DNA of 23,511 nt from Basidiobolus heterosporus B8920 (lineage: Eukaryota; Basidiobolomycota; Basidiobolomycetes; Basidiobolales; Basidiobolaceae). The stretch lies in contig JNET01030729.1 of NCBI GenBank assembly GCA_000697455.1, forward strand, positions 1-23,511. The letters run 5' to 3'. The notes beneath the pieces are model-generated. The model saw only the letters and a program-made list of their open reading frames with translations, was not told where the DNA came from and did no database searches. This document shows, in pieces, positions 1,199 to 21,003 of the stretch (position 1 is the first letter of the stretch; the number at the start of each line of letters is the position of its first letter). The position numbers and the translations under genes were made by a program.

Positions 1199-3930
1199 TT
1201 ATTCTTTGCCTAACATTCCAAGCTGTTGCAAGAACCCTCTGGGAGTAAGAAGCTCAGTTGAGCCATAAGTGATCTTCTTCTTAATTACTTGTCGCTAAAT
1301 AGTTTAACTAAGATCAGGAAATGCTTTAAAACGAACCAACCTATAAAATAACCCCTTTACCTGTGCAAATTCTTGCAGATTTTGATACTCTACGTAATTT
1401 CCTCCTCCCACAACAAATACAATGGCTTCTTGGAATGGAACCTTACCACGAGTGTATTTGCCAACACTACTGCGACTCAATTTAGGATTGAAGTAGAGAT
1501 AATCATCTGTCTCATTGACACCACTGCTGGGATCCATCATTTGCTCTACCACTTTAGTGACATTCAGGTCTTTACGCGTGGGTAGTAAATTCTTAAAGCT
1601 AGACAAGAGATTGCCGTAAGCTCCACCCATGATACTTCCCTCTTTCAAATGATCCGTCAACTGAAAGATGTTCAATGATGTTTGTTAGTATGTATTAGTG
1701 AACATTTCAGTGGTCGATGAGTGTTACCTTGTTACCAATGGAACTAAAGCGATTAAGGAAATCTGGCGCCTTGTATGCACTTGGGTTCACATTTGTAACT
1801 GCAGTCATGCGGGTGAAAGCACGAACCCTAATTTTCAACAATTGAGTAAATGTGATATGTTTAGACAAGAAATGCGCTTGTGTAATTACCTTTTGAGGTA
1901 GTGTAATGGCTTCATGTCGCATTCGGCACTTTCCAAAGCTGCTTCATACTCGTTCATATCCTCTTGTGAAATCGTTTCCACCGATAAGTAGTATATCAAG
2001 AATAGTCGCATTTTGTCTTCGGGTTTCTTTGCTGGATCCTTGATAGCCTCCAGGATGGTGGCTTTGTTCTTATTTTAATAAAACATAGCATCAGTAACAA
2101 GAAATATCAAAATACCGCTTGCTATACTAACCTGCTTACCCATAGACTCTTCCATTTGAAAGAAGACGTCTAGTTGGCGATCTTTGATGATATTTAGAAG
2201 TGCGGTAGCGATATTCATGTGCATGTCAATGGTGGCTTTTCTAGCCGTCAACTCGGGGAGTGCAGTAATTGCCGATTTCAAATGTTTTGCATTGGAGGTG
2301 AGGTCCCTGTGAATAAGATAGCAAATTAGACCCGGCGCGCGGTAAAAACTCCAACGTGTAACTCACATCTGATTCACATCATCAAGGGAAGTCAACCCGC
2401 TCATTTTGGTGATCTCAGCCGCATCTTGCTTGTATTTGCTGAGCTCCAGATCAATCTCCTCTAGATATAGTGGCTTAATACAAATCAACAAAAGAATTGA
2501 TGTCCAAATCGTTACCAGCAACTTGAGGGAAAGGAGCCGCGGCATTTTTGGCCCAAAAGAAATCCTGGATATCAAGATCGTATCCTTTTTTGCTGGTTCT
2601 CCCTTGTTCTTGTGTCTGTAAATATGGTCAGCAAGATAGCTTCGTGTGTAACACCACAATATTCAGATCTAACCTGAACGACGATTCTATTCAGCTTCAT
2701 ATCTAAGGCGTCATGAACCAAAGCTTGGTATGTCCATGAATGACTGAAGAGAGGAGCAAGATCAATGCTTCTATCAAGCAAAATCAAAACTAAAAGGCAA
2801 GATCTTAGCTACCAGTAGACTTCTACTATTACGACATTAGTAAGCAACTTACCTGGGCTTTGAGTGGCTAGCCCTGAAGCATCAGCAAACAGGTTTGCTC
2901 TGTTATTTAAGACGTGATCTCTTAGCTTGGTATCAAGGCGTTGAGATATCATCTCGGCGGCACCACCTCTAGGACATCTAATAACAGGAACAACGCCTAT
3001 TGAACTGTAAGTATCTTCTACAGTAATAAATCCACTTTCCAATATAAGGCAATACCCATAGTGACTAGGACGGAGAATAAAGAATTGACGATTTGGTCAA
3101 TCATTGCTTCTATAGAAGTCTCCGGAGCGGAGGGATCGTTCAGCTGAAGGTAGGAATTATGTATGTTCAAGGAGAACATATTGGATTCAGAACAGACAAA
3201 GTTTAAGTATTGATCGTACACCTGTGCAAACAGAATTTTAGTCAATGACTACGGCAAAATAAAAAATCTGTGACTACCTGCGCAATTTGGTCTGAGGTGT
3301 TTGTTGTAATAGCAGTAGAAGCAAGGTCTTCGAGTAAAGGGCGGGGAAGGGCAGAAGAGAAATTCAAATAATACGATTCGTATAGATTCTTCGACAAGTC
3401 CTAAAGAATGGATTCAATGCTAAATCAAATGACCACTAGTAGTCTCAAAATTGAGTAAATCTCGGTTCTACCTCACTTATTTTCTTCAAGTTTTCTTGGG
3501 TTGGTTCCACAAAATAAATTGCTGGGACATCAGGAATTGCAAGACGCTCACTATTCAATAGCCTAGTACAAAAGGAGAAGATTGAGAAAATCTAGAGTAA
3601 TAACAGATGTAAAAATAGAGTGCGTACATATGGACTGTAACTCCGTTTTCTCGCAAGTCGTTAACCCGAAGTACGGACGAAATGAGATCTTGTCCAAATT
3701 GATCGAAGATGAGAACTTTCCAGACAGGATCGCCAGATGCCAACCCAATTAGCGGGATGTTCGATTCCTCGTTATTGGATGTGTCTTCGTGGTTGAGGTT
3801 AAGCATTTTTACGATAGCATCTAAGATAGAGATACTAGTTGTCAGGTTGATGAAATGGGGCAACCTTGATATGGTAGGGAATACACTTGCCTATTTGCTT
3901 ATCCCTTAAGGATTTCTCGACTGTCTCCAT
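1199..3930 (-). CDS. SLY1: SLY1, Sec1/Munc18-family SNARE regulator
   Basis: SM protein that binds the syntaxin Sed5/Ufe1 class and promotes SNARE assembly in ER-Golgi transport. I assemble 14 exons: 3930-3891, 3820-3628, 3562-3472, 3400-3278, 3221-3056, 2996-2853, 2789-2674, 2615-2516, 2460-2367, 2306-2132, 2068-1890, 1827-1728, 1660-1361 and 1279-1199. They total 1902 nt, or 633 residues plus TAA, close to yeast Sly1 (666). Frame is kept at every junction. Family hallmarks in order: SLRDKQI at the N-terminus, [109 protein letters not shown], and [14 protein letters not shown] near the C-terminus. Intron 1 starts with GC (AG|GCAAGT), the rest with GT. Exons 10 and 12 each carry a second possible donor a few bases upstream that would break the frame. 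The start codon is the first Met before SLRD. Confidence 0.95.
3821..3890 (-). other. GC-AG intron 1 of SLY1
   Basis: The first SLY1 intron begins AG|GCAAGT and ends CTTAG. Splicing here joins ..DKQI to DAIVKML, matching the family. No GT donor near it restores this join. The donor fits the strong consensus known for GC-AG introns. Confidence 0.85.
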
Positions 3931-6655: not shown

Positions 6656-6662
6656 TATATAA
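6656..6662 (+). promoter_or_regulatory. TATA box of secreted microexon gene
   Basis: TATATAA, 46 nt before the ATG at 6708, leaving room for a transcription start about 25-30 nt downstream and a short leader. Confidence 0.65.
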
Positions 6663-6707: not shown

Positions 6708-7923
6708 ATGCGTCTAGTTTACCTTCAAATAACTCTAATCTCATTTGCGGTAGCCGCACCAATAGACCAAATAGTGTTCGGTTTAAAGAAAAATCCGGTT
6801 CATGAGGGCACTAATAACATCAACCGCCTAAAAGAGATGCAAGTTTCCAAGAACCAACATGAACCCAAGTCGATGGATATGAAATCATCAGGTAACCGTT
6901 TGATACTCGGCGTAAACGGCATTGAACACTGCATCTAATGCTTCATAGATCAAAAACCCCTAACCACTGAATGCAACGGCAGCGCAATGGATGATGGTCA
7001 GTACAACGAGCCTTTTATGGGATTTCTTCAATCAAAGATGGAAGAACAGTCTCGATATTTACCCATTAAGGAAATAGCCTACGAACAAGGTAAATAAAAA
7101 AAAACTCAAGTAAAATTCAACCAACTTTAAAATCCATTCCAGGTATATTCTCATTGAGCTTTCCCGGAGGATTCATGGGTAAGCACCAACATAACCAAAA
7201 TTGGGAAATTGGGAATCCCCTTTACTTATCTAGTCTTGCTCCTCACTAGATACTATTGACCAATCTGGGATAAAAGGATCTTTGAGTCCTAGTAAGTCAA
7301 CCATTTTTCTAAACCTCAAACAGACCTAACCTTTACTTAGAAATACTTGCTGGTTCATTTGGGAAAGTTCCAGAGACTGTTTCAGGTAATTCGCACATGA
7401 ATTGGCTTATTTAGTAATTACTCGTTAACATTTATCCACGTAGGAATAGATTTTATCCCAGGGTTCCCTATGGGAATGATGAGCATGGTACAAAGTAAGA
7501 GTGATTGATTTCCACACAATTCGAACTACCATTGATCATCATTGTGCCTGCACCAGATATGATTTCTAACCTCGCTGGTATTGGCATCGAGCCAATGAGT
7601 ATTCCCCCATTGAATGGTATGCCACTAGAGCACTAGAAACACCACAGATAACACAAATACCAATGCTGATTCATTGCTCATTTCATAGGAATGGATGTGG
7701 TGCCCTTGGGAATCCCGGGTAAGAGTTTGTCAGCTTTTCCCCGTATCTTCTATTCTTTAACACATCTATGCTGTTTACAGTCCCACAACAATTTGCTCCT
7801 AGCCTCAATTCGGTAAGGATATGTTGGATTGGATGTATTGCGTGTATTGCGTGTATTGCGTGCAAGTGAACTGACTTCGTATTCATCAAGGAGCTGTCTC
7901 TAATGGAGATCATGATCTCGTGA
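6708..7923 (+). CDS. Secreted protein encoded by microexons
   Basis: I assemble ten exons: 6708-6891, 6949-7089, 7143-7178, 7250-7291, 7341-7385, 7444-7494, 7557-7616, 7689-7718, 7781-7812 and 7891-7923 (654 nt, 217 residues). Every intron is GT-AG, 49-78 nt. Exons 3-8 are 36, 42, 45, 51, 60 and 30 nt, all multiples of three, and introns 1-8 are all phase 1, so any middle exon can be skipped without a frameshift. Residues 1-17 (MRLVYLQITLISFAVAA) form a signal peptide with likely cleavage before APIDQ. The first two exons encode a hydrophilic region with one Cys. The microexons encode Gly/Pro/Met/Ile-rich segments (LSFPGGFM, IDFIPGFPMGMM, MDVVPLGIP). I recognise no domain. This architecture resembles alternatively spliced secreted effectors such as SP7 relatives of mycorrhizal fungi and microexon genes of schistosomes, by analogy only. 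The last exon is the least certain; reading through its donor gives another short tail. It is convergent with UreD. Confidence 0.75.
7835..7861. repeat. 9-bp tandem repeat, 3 units
   Basis: Three perfect copies of GTATTGCGT inside the last intron (7813-7890) of the microexon gene. If that intron is retained the repeat reads as a Cys-Ile-Ala triplication before a TGA. Confidence 0.9.
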
Positions 7924-8074
7924 ATTGATAGGGAAATAAACAACTTTAATTAAGTGAGATTAAATTTTCAAACTGCCTATGTATCTGAATGGGGTAGGGT
8001 TAAGGTTAGGTAGTGATTTACAAGGGTTAGTAATAAAACACTGGTCTTCTATATATTCATTCTTACGGATCATT

Positions 8075-9037
8075 CTAAATGAGCATTCGAGAGTAAACAT
8101 CATCCCCGATAATAGGGACAATCTCTCTCAAATGTTCCTTCACGAAAAGTCGGATTTCTTCGGTGGTCAGAGCGGCAGCACGAAGAATCACTCCCTCGTC
8201 ATTGCCAATCACTGAGGCAGACCAGATGGGACTTTGTGGGGGAAGCTTGGGGTTTCTTGGGGAAATGGACATCTTGTTGAACTCTTCAAGAATACTCTTG
8301 ATGATTGGCTTCAAGTGGGGTCCGTATATAACCAAGATAGCATAACACTCATAAGGAGCCACACGGTATCCATAGTTTGTGTGTTGACCATAGCGGTTCA
8401 TGGATGCCTTCTCCTCTGCAGAACGTTTAGCACCTCCCTCCAATTCTTTGACCCGATCGTCATCACGGATAACTTGCGCGTCACGAAGAACAAGTTTGCC
8501 ATCGTGGAAAATATTGTTAACGGAATTGTATTCGGCAAACTCCCAACTCTCTCCACGACTCATTCTTCCACTTGTAAACCAATCCAACATCACCAAGGAA
8601 CCAGTGCCTGAGATATGGAAGTCTTGAGTCTGATGGTACATGGCATCTCTGAAGCAAGTTACTTGATCTGGAAGTAACACCAAAAGTCCCTCATCCTCAA
8701 TAGTATACTTGAAGTGTTGGGCTGAAGCGTCGGTAGACAGGGGTAGTTTGGGATTACGTTTTTTGAAAACTTTAGTAGAACCTTGAGTGAGCATGGCCAA
8801 CTTGGCGCCTGTTTTCACCGATATGTTCATGGTGACTACATCACCACAAACTAGACCACCACCGTAGGTCAAAGCGTATATAAGAGCAGTTTTTTTCAAA
8901 TGAGCAGAAGGTCGGATCAGCTTCAAAGGGTAACGGGAATGAAAGCGTGTGAGCGTAGCGGTGTCACCAACGACGGCACACTCAATCATACCCTGGCCCT
9001 GCTCGATTGTCACAGAATTCGGTAAGATTTTAGACAT
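8075..9037 (-). CDS. ureD: Urease accessory protein UreD
   Basis: Single-exon protein of 320 residues, normal for fungal UreD (UreH). With UreF and UreG it forms the chaperone complex that activates apo-urease by carbamylation and nickel insertion in the cytosol. Family motifs are clear: YGGGLVCGD at 58-66, the VKTGAKLAMLTQGSTKVFK block at about 74-92 (the classic TQ..TKV motif), LLPDQVTCFRDA at about 121-132, and WFTSGRMSRGE at 153-163. The C-terminal part ends with the usual ILRAAALTTEEIRLFVKEHL segment. The start ATG is followed directly by conserved sequence and preceded by in-frame non-conserved DNA. No urease structural gene or other accessory gene is nearby, as expected in fungi, where these genes are dispersed. 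Identification is secure. Confidence 0.95.
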   Translation of the reverse strand: MSKILPNSVTIEQGQGMIECAVVGDTATLTRFHSRYPLKLIRPSAHLKKTALIYALTYGGGLVCGDVVTMNISVKTGAKLAMLTQGSTKVFKKRNPKLPLSTDASAQHFKYTIEDEGLLVLLPDQVTCFRDAMYHQTQDFHISGTGSLVMLDWFTSGRMSRGESWEFAEYNSVNNIFHDGKLVLRDAQVIRDDDRVKELEGGAKRSAEEKASMNRYGQHTNYGYRVAPYECYAILVIYGPHLKPIIKSILEEFNKMSISPRNPKLPPQSPIWSASVIGNDEGVILRAAALTTEEIRLFVKEHLREIVPIIGDDVYSRMLI

Positions 9038-9715
9038 CGCGTGTGATAGAATTTACAAAGGAAAGAAAGAATTAACAAGGTTTAACTCAAAAGTTCTAGT
9101 AATCAACAATTGGGATTTCACGATCTTTTATGTGAATGAAGGTGCTATCGTGGCTAGACTCATAACTTCATACTTGGGAAAACAAAAATACCAAATACGG
9201 TAGAATCCCATATATGCATAAACATCGAATCTGGTAAAATACTAAATTCGAATCAGCTCCTTTTCCGTGTTGACTAAAATCGGAAGGATTAACAGATAGC
9301 AGAAACACGTCTGATTTCAATGGAATGCTGAAGATATCCAGACTTGAGTGAAATCTGTAGTTTCCAATGTTCTAGCTGAAGAATACTGAGCTTTGAGTCG
9401 GTAACGATGATGGCGATGTGCGATGTGCGTTGTGCGATGTGCGATGTTCACGGTAACCGTACTGGTAATTGGATGGTGGTAGTGGTAAGAAAATGTGAAT
9501 AGTGAGACATCTCCTTGTAGTGTGCTATGGTTCTGATGACGAATAACTGTTTTTTGTGCGGGTGTACGTCATTCTACTAAAGATAAACAAGATATTGGTT
9601 TAATCAAATAACTACGCATCATAAGTGACTACGTAAATAACATTTCTATCGTGGCCCTTGTATAAGTAAACAGGGGGTTGTAAGAGCAAATTTTTTTCAG
9701 TAGACGAGGCAGGAG
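9038..9715. other. Intergenic between UreD and snoRNA host gene
   Basis: No coding sequence supported. It should contain the UreD promoter (read leftwards) and the upstream region of the snoRNA host gene. A 7-bp minisatellite lies at 9413-9447. Confidence 0.55.
9413..9447. repeat. 7-bp tandem repeat, 5 units
   Basis: Five units of GCGATGT, the third with one substitution (GCGTTGT), in the upstream region shared by UreD and the snoRNA host gene. Confidence 0.9.
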
Positions 9716-9722: not shown

Positions 9723-9824
9723 GCTGATTATGACTCCTTTGACCGATATACTTCACATTCTAGGATGCCTCAGTGTAAATAGGTAAGTGTCAATCAATTG
9801 ATTCCTTTTTAATTGTTCATGTGA

Positions 9825-9900
9825 ATGACGATACCAAGCACGTCAGTCAGTAAGTTCCTCGGAACGTTGTTGACCTAATTATCTATACCCAAATTTCTGA
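9825..9900 (+). ncRNA. Box C/D snoRNA-like RNA, copy 1
   Basis: A 76-nt unit from C-box-like ATGACGA (9825-9831) to D-box CTGA (9897-9900). Similarity among the three copies begins at the C box and stops one base after D. The element CTATACCCAAATTT immediately before box D is identical in all copies. The internal hairpin has loop CTCG and keeps pairing through G-U wobbles where ACTG has become GTTG. The terminal stem is weak in this copy, unlike the other two. Confidence 0.7.
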
Positions 9901-10063
9901 CCCTCATTGTTATTCATTGTTTCCAAATATCCAATGACTTGAAATTAATTAATCCCTCTCTTAGCATAAAGTCTAGGCTGTGTCTCATGTCCAAGTAACA
10001 CTTATGTCAGTTGCATTCTCTGTATGTATGTTCAAAGTATTGAATTATTAAGGCATTTCTAGA

Positions 10064-10139
10064 GTGACGAGATTAAGCACGTCAGTCAGTAAGTTCTTTG
10101 GAACACTGTTGACCTAATTATCTATACCCAAATTTCTGA
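10064..10139 (+). ncRNA. Box C/D snoRNA-like RNA, copy 2
   Basis: A 76-nt unit with C box GTGACGA (10064-10070) and D box CTGA (10136-10139). The flanks form a terminal stem, TCTAG (10058-10062) with CTAGA (10140-10144), whose sequence is unlike that of copy 3, so pairing rather than sequence is kept. The internal hairpin GTTC-TTTG-GAAC is extended by CAGT/ACTG and GTCA/TGAC. The 3' antisense element is the same as in copies 1 and 3. Confidence 0.75.
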
Positions 10140-10261
10140 CTAGATGCCATTTAAGTATATCCAATACTATTACAAATACTTATACCTCATTCTTTCTAGG
10201 TAACTGTGATATCTATCTGTATGTACCAATAGGTAATTGTTTAACTTAGCCTTTGACGCGG

Positions 10262-10337
10262 ATGACGAGACCAAGCACGTCAGTCAGTAAGTTCTTCGGA
10301 ACACTGTTGACCTAATTATCTATACCCAAATTTCTGA
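10262..10337 (+). ncRNA. Box C/D snoRNA-like RNA, copy 3
   Basis: A 76-nt unit with C box ATGACGA (10262-10268) and D box CTGA (10334-10337). The terminal stem is CGCG (10257-10260) with CGCG (10338-10341). The internal hairpin has a UUCG loop, GTTC-TTCG-GAAC. C box differs from the RTGATGA consensus by T to C at its fifth position in all three copies, the main reason for caution. Confidence 0.75.
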
Positions 10338-10650
10338 CGCGCTAAAATTCTTCCATTATGCCAATTTTCACTAATCCATTCATTCAGTCCTTGTATAGAT
10401 CAACCAGTTTTAATGTAAATTTTGAAAATAAACCGTTTACATGTTGTTATCCTATCATTGCTTATCAATATTATGCGAGAAATTTCCATTAATACTAATA
10501 TCAATGTGGGTCAGGGATGCTACTAATTGATGGTAGTATTTCTGTGGTTTGATGAGTAATACGAGTATGTAGATTTTGCTGTAATTAGTATATGTAAACA
10601 CGATTTAGAGATTCTGGAAGTTACGGTTGGAAATAATCTAGTCTGAAAAA

Positions 10651-10813
10651 TTCTGGGAGTTGTTGGAAGTGATTCGGGGAATTAGAAAAATATGTGGTTT
10701 TCACTTGTAGATTTATTGAATTGAAAGTTGGCTTTTATACTTGTCAAGAACTAAACAAAGCAATATGTGTAATTTGTTAAGGAAAGTCCTAGAGACATAT
10801 GTGCATAGCTTTG
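10651..10813. mobile_element. Truncated LTR fragment, copy A
   Basis: About 160 bp matching the 5' portion of the LTR family (TTCTGGGAGTTGTTGG onward), without the terminal TGTTGTGAG. It is an old, diverged remnant in the same orientation as the others. Confidence 0.65.
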
Positions 10814-10965
10814 GATAAATAGATATTTTAATACATTGGAAGGAGCAAAGTGCCTTCAACTAAATTGGCATAGATGCTGAAGACAAATTCCATATCTAAT
10901 TCACTACAGCTAAAACTGCAAAGAAAGCCTGTAAAGCCCCACAAGATGCCAACTAAGCTAGTTAT

Positions 10966-11313
10966 TGTTGTGAGATTCTGGGAGTTATTCAAAGTGATTT
11001 GGAGAATTAGAAGAATATGTGGTTTTCACTTATAGATTTATTAAATATAAAGTTGACTCTTATACTTTTGTCAAGAAGTAAACAAATCAATGTATAGAAT
11101 GTGTTAAGGAAGGTCCCAGGAACATGAGTGCAAAGTTTGGGGTCATTTGGACATGTTTGAAAAAGTCAAGTATTCTAGGTACTTCTAAGTTAGTGAAAAA
11201 TACTCTAAGTAAAACCCAAGTGTGAGTTTTGGGTGAGAAGGAATTGAAAAGTAAACATCACAAGGGTAAGATCTAGTATGAATAATTACATGTTAAATTA
11301 TGTGAGTTTCAAT
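10966..11313. mobile_element. LTR fragment, copy B
   Basis: Begins with the family terminus TGTTGTGAGATTCTGG and shares about 350 bp with the copy at 12172, including the block around AAGTTTGGGGTCATTTGG. No matching 3' terminus was found for it. A faint further match near 11645-11690 may be another decayed copy. Confidence 0.7.
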
Positions 11314-12171
11314 GGAAATAACATGTTACTAAGTAAAGTCATAGGAGTATCTGTAACAAGTCTTAGGTGATTTGTTTGTCTCTGAAAATATAGGTAATCT
11401 GAATACTAAGTGTATGAATTATCTTCAGTATGACCTAAGTGCATCTTGTATAGGGTAAAACTGGCGAGTGAACTCAAGATGGGGTGATCTTGTATGCTTA
11501 GTTAGATGCTAAGATATTTGAATTTTACTCATTTATTGCATGTGAAATCATATTTGAAGTTTTGTCACAAGGAAAACCAAGTAACTATTGAAATTCACCC
11601 ATTTATCATCTAATTTTATTTATATTAGATCTTGCTCCAGTGATTGGGAAGTTATTGAAAGAGTTTTAGAAAAACAGAAGAATATAAAGTTATGGCAAAA
11701 AATTTAGTTACTCTAGCACCTAAGTACTCATATAATTAGGTACATAAGAGATATTTTGTGCTAATGAGACATTTGTCCAAGCTTTAAGTGCAAAATCATT
11801 TTGGATTAACTACAAGATTACAAAAATGTTGGATTTGTAAGAAATCTTAGACATGCTCAAATGAGTTGAAGCCTCTAAAGTATACTTTTAGAATCCTTTA
11901 AAATAGTATATAATAGTTGCTCTACTTGGTGACAGCAAGAGGTTGAGATATCTTTCTTCGCTACAAAAAATATCAGGTGAAAATGCAACAATTTCTTAAT
12001 ATCCTAGGCACTTCCAATATCTCTATTTTTGCTTTCAACAATTAAGGCATTTGTAGTATGCTAACAGTGCTTCTAAAGATATATTCCATGTGCCTGGATC
12101 ATTTTAACATTTTTTAGAAAGACAAATAGCTTGTGTACTTTTATTCTAGTAAGAGCATGCAAAGTGAGTCT
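11314..12171. other. Gene-free AT-rich DNA between LTR copies
   Basis: No frame of interest and no retrotransposon protein domain is visible. Probably degraded element sequence. Confidence 0.45.
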
Positions 12172-12515
12172 TGTTGTGAGATTCATGGAGTTATTGGAAA
12201 TGATTTGGAGAATTAGAAGAATATGTGGTTTTCACTTGCAGATTCACTGAATGTCAAGTTGACTTTTATACTTTTGTCAAGAAGTAAGCAAAGCAACATG
12301 TAGAATGTGTTAATAAAGGTCCCAGGAGCATGAGTGTAAGTTTGAGGTCATTTAGACATGTTTGAGAAAGTTAAGTATTCTGGGTACTTCTAAGTTGGTG
12401 AAAAATAATCAAAGTAAACCTGAGTATGAATTTGGGGTAAAAGGAAATAACCAAGTAAAGATAATAAGGATGAGATCAAGTATGAATAATTAGATGCTAA
12501 ATTATGTGAATTTCA
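12172..12515. mobile_element. LTR fragment, copy C
   Basis: Starts TGTTGTGAGATTC and is alignable with copy B across about 340 bp. A small frame at 12528-12731 just downstream lacks any transposon domain. Confidence 0.7.
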
Positions 12516-12826
12516 ACAAGTCTCAGGTTGTATGCATGGATTTTGGATAAACTCTCAAGTGTATTATTGAAAGTGAAAACAGTGAAACTGCAAGTATATT
12601 GTGATATTAAAAAGATGTTTTGTACTCTCACCAGGTCCTTTATGGTAAGGAAGAAAGGCATTCAGTTGAAGCTAAAAGAGAATATGATAAAGGCTACTCA
12701 AGGTGGTTCTGAAAAAGCTCTGATAACTTAGCACTTATGTAGTAAAACTATGTCTTGCCTTTACTATATCTACTAAATATCTTCTCCTTACCCCAAGTTG
12801 AACATTCACACTACCTCAGAGATAAC

Positions 12827-13414
12827 TGTTGTGAGATTCTGGGAGTTATTGGAAGTGACTTGGAGAGTTAGAAGAATATGTGGTTTTCACTTATTGATTT
12901 ATTGAATGTAAAGTTAGCATTTATACTTTTGTCAAGAAGTAAATAAAGCAATGTGTTGAATATGTTAAAGAAGGTCCCAGGATCATGTGTGCAAAGTTTG
13001 GGGTCATTTGGACATGTTTGAAAAAGTCAAGTATTCTGGGTATTTCTGCCTTGCACTAGAACTAAGTGCTGAAACTACTATGTACTATCCTTGAGGGTTC
13101 TGAAAGCATACTGAAAAATTTCAGCTCATTTGAACATGTTTAGGATTTTCTATCAATACAACATTTTTATACTATTTTAACTAATCCAAATTGATCTTGT
13201 ACTTGTGAGATATTTGTCTCAGTCACACTGTGTAAGATATCACTTGTATGTCTAATTACTTGAGTATTTAGGTGCTAAACTATCCCGATTTAAATAATTA
13301 CGCCTATTTTAGTCAGGAGTGTGAATATCAGTTTTACACTCAATATATCAATACATAAAATCATGTGTTCTAGCTCTCAATGTTATTTATAGCAACTGCC
13401 AGAATCTCATTACA
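12827..13414. mobile_element. Nearly complete solo LTR, copy D
   Basis: A 588-bp element beginning TGTTGTGAGATTCTGG and ending CCAGAATCTCATTACA. The ends are inverted repeats matching at 14 of 16 positions and carry the TG..CA termini of LTRs. Flanks are ATAAC and AAAAC, a possible decayed 5-bp target duplication. There is no internal gag-pol sequence, tRNA primer site or second LTR beside it, so a solo LTR is the simplest reading. A non-autonomous DNA transposon is the alternative because of the long terminal inverted repeats. Confidence 0.65.
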
Positions 13415-20208: not shown

Positions 20209-21003
20209 ATGAATTGGTGTATTCTACTTTGCGTAATCTTTATCGCAACATTGGTAGACGAAGCAGTGTCGTCCCACATTACAAGGAGAGACTCCAATAT
20301 TAAACCTTCCAATCCCCTTGGTCTTCAGATTAAGTATAGAGTGGCGTGGATAGATGAAAGCAGCGGGTTATTCGGTGGAAACCTGACTATAACAATGCCA
20401 ACATCGTCACTAAATACAAAGTGGAGCTTGAAGTTTATTTTCAGCGATTTCAAGACTAGAATCAACGAGTATTGGGGTGATTGGACCTTAGAGAGGTATC
20501 GAAGTGGGTGGTACGTAGTCTTGCCTGTTGCTAACCCCACAAGTTTAACAGATTCCTATCTTTTCAATGGCCAATTCTTTCCCCAACTGGGGTCTTCGAA
20601 GGGTTCCTTATTTAATACCACCACTCCCTCTTCTTACACTTTGATAATGAGCGCTTCACCCGGAGATGGATCAGGCGTCCACTTGGTTTCTCCGTTCGAT
20701 TACATCAACGAGCCTCTAGATTCTAACGTACAGACTAAGCCCTTTGGTCCGTATTTTCGTGTCTCATCACCTCTTACAAAGCCCTCATCCTCGACCACAG
20801 ATCCAAGTCAGTATGGAGAGGGAACAAATATTCAGACTACGCCAATTGGACTGTACATCTATTCAATAGTGTTTGTGATCGGGTTGATTGTTTTTGGTGT
20901 GGGAACCATACAGCGTCGAAGGTACCGTGGCCAGTTTAGAGAGCAGAACAAATTACAGCAGGAGCAAATTAAACTTATAGAAGAAGCAAACAAATCTTTC
21001 TAA
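20209..21003 (+). CDS. Type I membrane protein, CBM2-like ectodomain (tentative)
   Basis: I start at the Met at 20209 rather than the upstream in-frame Met at 20059, because MNWCILLCVIFIATL then begins a signal peptide; the first 50 codons of the longer frame would bury it. The product has 264 residues. The ectodomain, about 40-150, has an alternating aromatic/hydrophobic pattern: YRVAW, GNLTITMP, WSLKFIFSDF, INEYWGDW, and GWYVVLP. This recalls the beta-sandwich layout of family 2 carbohydrate-binding modules (N..W.L.W.F....I...W......G..Y.V), but it is only a resemblance. A Ser/Thr/Pro-rich linker (about 185-212) precedes a membrane segment at 213-234 and a basic, Gln/Glu-rich cytoplasmic tail that could form a short coiled coil. 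AATAAA follows at 21152-21157. Intronless, unlike its divergent neighbour. Topology is confident; sugar binding is speculative. Confidence 0.8.
   Translation: MNWCILLCVIFIATLVDEAVSSHITRRDSNIKPSNPLGLQIKYRVAWIDESSGLFGGNLTITMPTSSLNTKWSLKFIFSDFKTRINEYWGDWTLERYRSGWYVVLPVANPTSLTDSYLFNGQFFPQLGSSKGSLFNTTTPSSYTLIMSASPGDGSGVHLVSPFDYINEPLDSNVQTKPFGPYFRVSSPLTKPSSSTTDPSQYGEGTNIQTTPIGLYIYSIVFVIGLIVFGVGTIQRRRYRGQFREQNKLQQEQIKLIEEANKSF

Follow-up and report, generated by a model that had tools for sequence, protein, structure and literature searches.

The window, which is the whole stretch of 23,511 nt that was analysed (contig JNET01030729.1 of Basidiobolus heterosporus B8920, assembly GCA_000697455.1, forward strand), carries at 6708–7923 (+) a predicted gene whose neighbours are SMI1/KNR4, in the same orientation, and UreD, on the opposite strand. 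A Sly1 gene in the same window served as the known gene for comparison. The coordinates of all features are listed in Table 1. The UreD product places the DNA in Basidiobolus: it was 88% identical to that of Basidiobolus meristosporus and 83% to that of B. ranarum, and the other 118 among the best 120 of 591 proteins showed at most 40% identity.

The model at 6708–7923 starts with ATG and has ten exons and nine GT..AG introns of 49–78 nt, with a predicted product of 217 aa. Introns 1–8 (consecutive, 49–72 nt) are all in phase 1 and intron 9 is in phase 0, and exons 2–8 are all symmetric (141, 36, 42, 45, 51, 60 and 30 nt). A preliminary description of this DNA had reported six exons of 30–60 nt, each a multiple of three and bounded by phase-1 introns. 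This short-exon run was borne out, and the phase-1 symmetry reaches beyond it, to exon 2 (141 nt). Exon 2 encodes one Cys and one N-glycosylation sequon, NGS. For exon 6, a second in-frame acceptor at 7462 is likewise compatible with the chain.

Table 1. Coordinates of the modelled gene and of other features in the window.
Feature	Position	Strand	Description
Sly1 gene	1199–3930	-	near-complete 14-exon model
Rival start	6605	+	chosen by the gene finder
TATA-like element	6656–6661	+	TATATA; 52 nt 5' of the ATG, downstream of the rival start
Exon 1	6708–6891	+	184 nt; signal-peptide-like start MRLVYLQITLISFAVA, onset of the hydrophilic part; phase-1 end
Exon 2	6949–7089	+	141 nt, phase 1-1; remainder of the hydrophilic part
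Exon 3, short	7143–7178	+	36 nt, phase 1-1; GIFSLSFPGGFM
Exon 4, short	7250–7291	+	42 nt, phase 1-1; DTIDQSGIKGSLSP
Exon 5, short	7341–7385	+	45 nt, phase 1-1; KILAGSFGKVPETVS
Exon 6, short	7444–7494	+	51 nt, phase 1-1; GIDFIPGFPMGMMSMVQ
Exon 7, short	7557–7616	+	60 nt, phase 1-1; NMISNLAGIGIEPMSIPPLN
Exon 8, short	7689–7718	+	30 nt, phase 1-1; GMDVVPLGIP
Exon 9	7781–7812	+	32 nt, phase 1 in, phase 0 out; VPQQFAPSLNS
Intron 9	7813–7890	+	78 nt, phase 0; holds a 9-nt tandem repeat
Tandem repeat in intron 9	7834–7862		nine-base unit TGTATTGCG, 3.2 copies
Exon 10	7891–7923	+	33 nt; stop codon TGA
Poly(A)-signal-like hexamer	7935–7940	+	AATAAA; shortly 3' of the stop at 7923
UreD gene	8075–9040	-
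86-nt units	9816–10338	+	three copies
AT-rich stretch	10650–13047		repeats of 93 and 221 nt
Intronless ORF	20209–21003	+	264 aa

The start codon was placed by weighing two candidates. The gene finder described below chose the rival start at all five penalties instead of 6708 (at penalty 7 with a score of 101.2, against 93.6 for 6708); the resulting model splices the signal peptide out and keeps the phase-1 chain. The start at 6708 was favoured because of its signal-peptide-like beginning and because the TATA-like element lies between the two starts, and this choice is a judgement. Residues 1–16 resemble a signal peptide with an A-x-A site. The signal peptide given in the preliminary description was missed by a crude rule at the first threshold, and then ranked 2 or 3 among the 105 ATG frames of the window; what stands of the claim is an N-terminus that points weakly to the secreted type. 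The product is probably secreted, as judged from its sequence.

Other stretches of the window were recorded in passing. The other two 86-nt units share 84% and 91% identity with the first one. All three match the C/D-box snoRNA snR40 (E 9e-4 to 2.3e-3; 30.8, 29.9 and 29.1 bits, under the Rfam gathering score of 50) and, by eye, each appears to be intronic in a transcript with very short exons; the stretch is possibly an snR40 host gene. In the AT-rich stretch, a 93-nt repeat occurs four times (85–87% identity with the first copy), and a 221-nt repeat that overlaps it occurs three times. The intronless ORF is, by eye, hydrophobic at its N-terminus and again in one stretch late in the protein; no Pfam family was found for it, and its product is perhaps a further membrane-anchored surface protein.

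The exon chain against shuffled and other DNA

Exons 3–8 contained no stop codon in the claimed frame and nine and two in the other two frames; across the nine introns, stops numbered 10, 15 and 13 by frame. Codon usage favoured the claimed frame in exons 2–8 and was neutral in exon 1.

Chains of same-phase exons were searched for under loose splice rules, with open internal exons of 15–150 nt, each a multiple of three and all of one phase, separated by introns of 45–90 nt. The longest chain in the region was eight exons in phase 1 and one in each other phase, and on the reverse strand of the region no chain exceeded two. The chain of eight consisted of the seven exons of the model and a spurious acceptor inside exon 1, with exon 6 entered through the acceptor at 7462. 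Among 1000 dinucleotide-shuffled sequences, the longest chain in any phase reached four once, three in 14 and less in 985. Tiles of genomic DNA (518 tiles, 197,731 bases) were drawn from the window and from 19 loci on 17 other contigs, and the chain was at most four in the other 517. Under a stricter version of the test, which required a branch-point motif, the chain was five, against at most two in 200 shuffles; the intron preceding exon 3 lacks the motif required. No second gene was recognisable in six inspected stretches elsewhere with chains of four. Searching the whole genome for the splice pattern gave no information, as the reversed control had more matches (819) than the pattern itself (429).

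A gene finder without a term for symmetry was also used, with a codon table taken from four neighbouring coding stretches and hand-set splice weights. All seven internal exons of the chain (7/7) were recovered at each intron penalty from 7 to 11, with scores of 59.5–101.2 against shuffle maxima of 16.5–48.7 (100 shuffles per penalty). At penalty 7 the finder inserted one additional intron at the 3' end of the gene, and at low penalty it invented introns in other DNA. Overall scores equal to or above that of the gene were reached by 18 of 408 other tiles at penalty 9 and by 23 of 408 at penalty 10, as is expected if real genes lie there. The distinguishing mark of the gene is its run of short symmetric exons, which numbered at most four in the compared tiles.

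On Sly1, a known gene with many introns, the finder came close to the right structure, with a model that was nearly end to end. At penalty 10 the predicted Sly1 product of 631 aa matched Pfam Sec1 over profile positions 1–575 (E 3e-135) and yeast Sly1 over residues 6–629 (E 1.7e-140), with a four-residue gap in the alignment near one junction, where a splice site may be misplaced; at other penalties Sly1 was modelled less cleanly. Its 13 introns measure 55–78 nt and are distributed over phases 0, 1 and 2 as 5, 5 and 3, and its 12 internal exons measure 79–300 nt. Because the phases of Sly1 are mixed and its internal exons are of this size, a chain of short phase-1 exons is not the default of this genome. 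From sequence alone, the gene structure at 6708–7923 is judged to be real and unusual.

The predicted product and the searches for relatives

The predicted protein falls into two parts. Residues 18–108 are hydrophilic (GRAVY -1.05) and are encoded by exons 1–2; the tail of 100 residues is hydrophobic (GRAVY +0.41) and is encoded mainly by the six short exons. The tail is composed of 14% Gly, 12% Ser, 12% Pro, 11% Ile and 8% Met. By charge and hydropathy (Uversky line), the N-part would be classed as disordered and the tail as ordered, which counts against a disordered tail. Duplication of exons was considered as a source of the short exons and was not borne out: the best uncorrected p was 0.01–0.02 among 28 pairs of cassette peptides and 0.02–0.06 among 15 pairs of cassette DNA units, and both lose significance after correction for multiple testing.

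Searches of the protein database gave no match at E ≤10 for the whole protein among 875 word-sharing candidates, and none at E ≤10 for exons 1–2 alone (one candidate). Exons 3–10, searched separately, likewise gave no relative. No Pfam family was found for the spliced product, in agreement with the preliminary description, which had recognised no domain, and the PDB sequences gave a single row (E 0.64), judged to be chance. The database includes the UreD proteins of both Basidiobolus species named above, and the gene is still without a match there; Basidiobolus relatives of such a gene may be unannotated in it.

In 8.1 Mb of the genome itself, no paralogue was found by protein, and a comparison of the gene and promoter DNA with the genome revealed no second copy. 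The database search needs shared five-letter words, and both it and the genome search are weak for short, diverged exons. Of the gene's own exons, the genome search recovered 1, 2, 5, 6 and 7 and missed 3, 4 and 8, so diverged paralogues could escape it. Within this sensitivity, the term undescribed agrees with the homologue and paralogue searches, and the family that had been proposed is unsupported, since the 8.1 Mb yielded no paralogue and the database no homologue. In the searches made, the predicted gene is a single-copy orphan. Among the matches listed in a limited open-access literature search, none dealt with fungal microexon genes.

Comparison with known short-exon and modular genes

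No homology was found to schistosome microexon genes (MEGs), aphid bicycle genes, SP7-like effectors or tropoelastin, and the comparison concerns design. Among these systems the schistosome MEGs look most alike. In the part of the MEG paper available (PMC4671649), they are described as having a signal peptide in the 5' exon, central short and mostly symmetric exons and a small secreted product, with hydrophobic and hydrophilic parts in some members. Symmetry is found in 26 of 33 MEG microexons, and here in 6/6 short exons, or 7/7 with exon 2 (PMC4671649, same part). The MEG microexons are shorter than 36 bp, whereas here one of the six short exons is (30 nt) and one is exactly 36 nt; the long 3' flanking exon of MEGs is to be set beside last exons of 32 and 33 nt (coding part only), and their long 5' flanking exon is to be compared with a coding part of 184 nt with a signal-peptide-like start (PMC4671649, same part). 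MEGs are also genes of a trematode and not of a fungus, and for the Basidiobolus gene neither a homologue nor paralogues were found. The likeness to MEGs that had been drawn earlier thus holds for the symmetric short exons and not for exon size, as 1/6 is below 36 nt. For some schistosome MEGs, a mucin-like net joined by hydrophobic domains has been suggested as one possibility (PMC4671649, same part).

Aphid bicycle genes, in the available part of their description (PMC9168663), are fast-evolving putative effectors whose numerous small internal exons share a single phase almost throughout, a principle seen here as well. That phase is phase 2 and the exons number about 17 on average (PMC9168663, same part), whereas the Basidiobolus gene has ten exons and all seven of its symmetric internal exons are in phase 1.

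The preliminary description had also invoked SP7-like effectors, which are fungal and modular and have a signal peptide. According to the available part of the SP7 paper (PMC11333574), these proteins contain 6–11 hydrophilic imperfect repeats with a conserved island, several have an NLS, and one conserved intron precedes the first repeat; the family is reported there only from Glomeromycotina. The Basidiobolus gene has nine introns, and its tail is hydrophobic (GRAVY +0.41) and without significant repeats after correction for the 28 pairs, so that the comparison with SP7, as far as that part of the paper goes, fails. The word microexon does not occur in the main text of the SP7 paper (PMC11333574).

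A parallel with tropoelastin is a resemblance in design only. The exons of tropoelastin are symmetric, with one split phase. As described in the available part of PMC7947355, each hydrophobic, Gly/Pro-rich, low-complexity domain of the vertebrate protein comes from a single exon, and alternative splicing is known. Elastin is described in the same part of PMC7947355 as having long introns, VPGVG-type repeats and Lys cross-linking domains that alternate with the hydrophobic ones. The Basidiobolus gene has none of these; its tail contains 3% Lys and, by eye, no Lys-Pro or Lys-Ala motif.

Origin, splicing and possible role of the exon series

Our tentative reading is that the product is an orphan, secreted or placed at the surface and modular in its tail, that the transcript is mostly constitutively spliced, and that cassettes can be gained or lost in frame. 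It would be a small secreted or cell-surface protein in two parts, the hydrophilic N-part and the hydrophobic low-complexity tail. The signal peptide would direct secretion, splicing across the short introns would be mostly constitutive, and the common phase would be the trace of a tail that grew as cassettes were gained and lost in frame. This tail may be flexible and serve on the surface of hyphae or spores in self-association or adhesion, in which case the number of cassettes would be free to vary with the protein intact. An adhesion or matrix role is a guess from composition. Basidiobolus lives in amphibian and reptile guts and produces capilloconidia with adhesive tips that stick to insects (available part of PMC10964425), and such a tip is a place where a protein of this kind could act.

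It is possible, if doubtful, that the gene is real and its symmetry without meaning, the introns having been inserted singly and all having fallen in phase 1 by chance and by phase-1 bias. Secreted and Gly-rich proteins show a bias towards phase-1 introns, and three of the eight junction codons encode Gly; the signs of exon duplication were unconvincing, and eight phase-1 introns out of eight have p 5e-4 at the Sly1 share of 5/13, for a pattern noticed post hoc in the whole window. Against this reading, the remaining five junction codons encode Asp, Asp, Lys, Asn and Val, and no other chain longer than four was found across 198 kb.

It is unlikely that exon skipping diversifies a secreted effector or surface protein here, with the symmetry kept because skipping is used and one gene yielding many isoforms. 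All 128 combinations of skipping among exons 2–8 (128/128) stay open as far as the same stop, the product is an orphan without a Pfam domain, and a parallel argument has been published for schistosome MEGs (available part of PMC4671649). No skip creates a stop because the exon-final bases are G or A, which is what ordinary donor sites are expected to give; the open frame is permissive and no proof of use. The skipping of a single exon would require a composite intron of 152–251 nt, as against 55–78 nt for the modelled Sly1 introns. Where the introns of a genome are this short, splicing proceeds mostly by intron definition, with retention rather than skipping, and short-intron fungi favour intron retention. 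Since the introns of both the gene and Sly1 are short, routine exon skipping is disfavoured, and no paralogue was found in the 8.1 Mb. Of the spliced variants proposed in the preliminary description, the open frames are thus upheld, and the long composite introns speak against their production. Constitutive splicing with evolutionary gain and loss of cassettes appears more likely than programmed skipping. If any one of introns 1–7 or 9 stays in the transcript, an in-frame stop results; retained intron 8 has no stop in the first frame, but shifts the frame, and retained intron 9 would give an alternative Cys-rich C-terminus, encoded by the 9-nt repeat, and an early stop.

We consider it quite improbable that the gene represents a convergent fungal microexon design, with phase-1 cassettes spliced into variants at the surface or at contact with an animal host and with sister genes unrelated in sequence elsewhere in Basidiobolus. 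It is very improbable that the chain is an artefact that arose in noncoding or decayed DNA rich in splice sites: no homologue of the model was found in the searches made, the finder invents introns elsewhere at low penalty and other tiles (18/408 or 23/408) score as high or higher, but the finder score lies beyond the shuffles at every penalty, the symmetric chain lies beyond both shuffles and other tiles, and codon usage backs the claimed frame in exons 2–8 (exon 1 being neutral).

Such genes could be missed, as sequence search finds no hold on them and exons of 30–60 nt may easily be lost in automatic annotation. In schistosomes and aphids, secreted genes that have few relatives are known to contain series of short exons, and the proteins are thought to act on the host. 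If a fungus from the guts of amphibians and reptiles provided a clean case, a convergent origin of the design would be suggested. The gene offers a test, in a lineage with very short introns, of whether exon symmetry serves splicing or modular protein evolution only.
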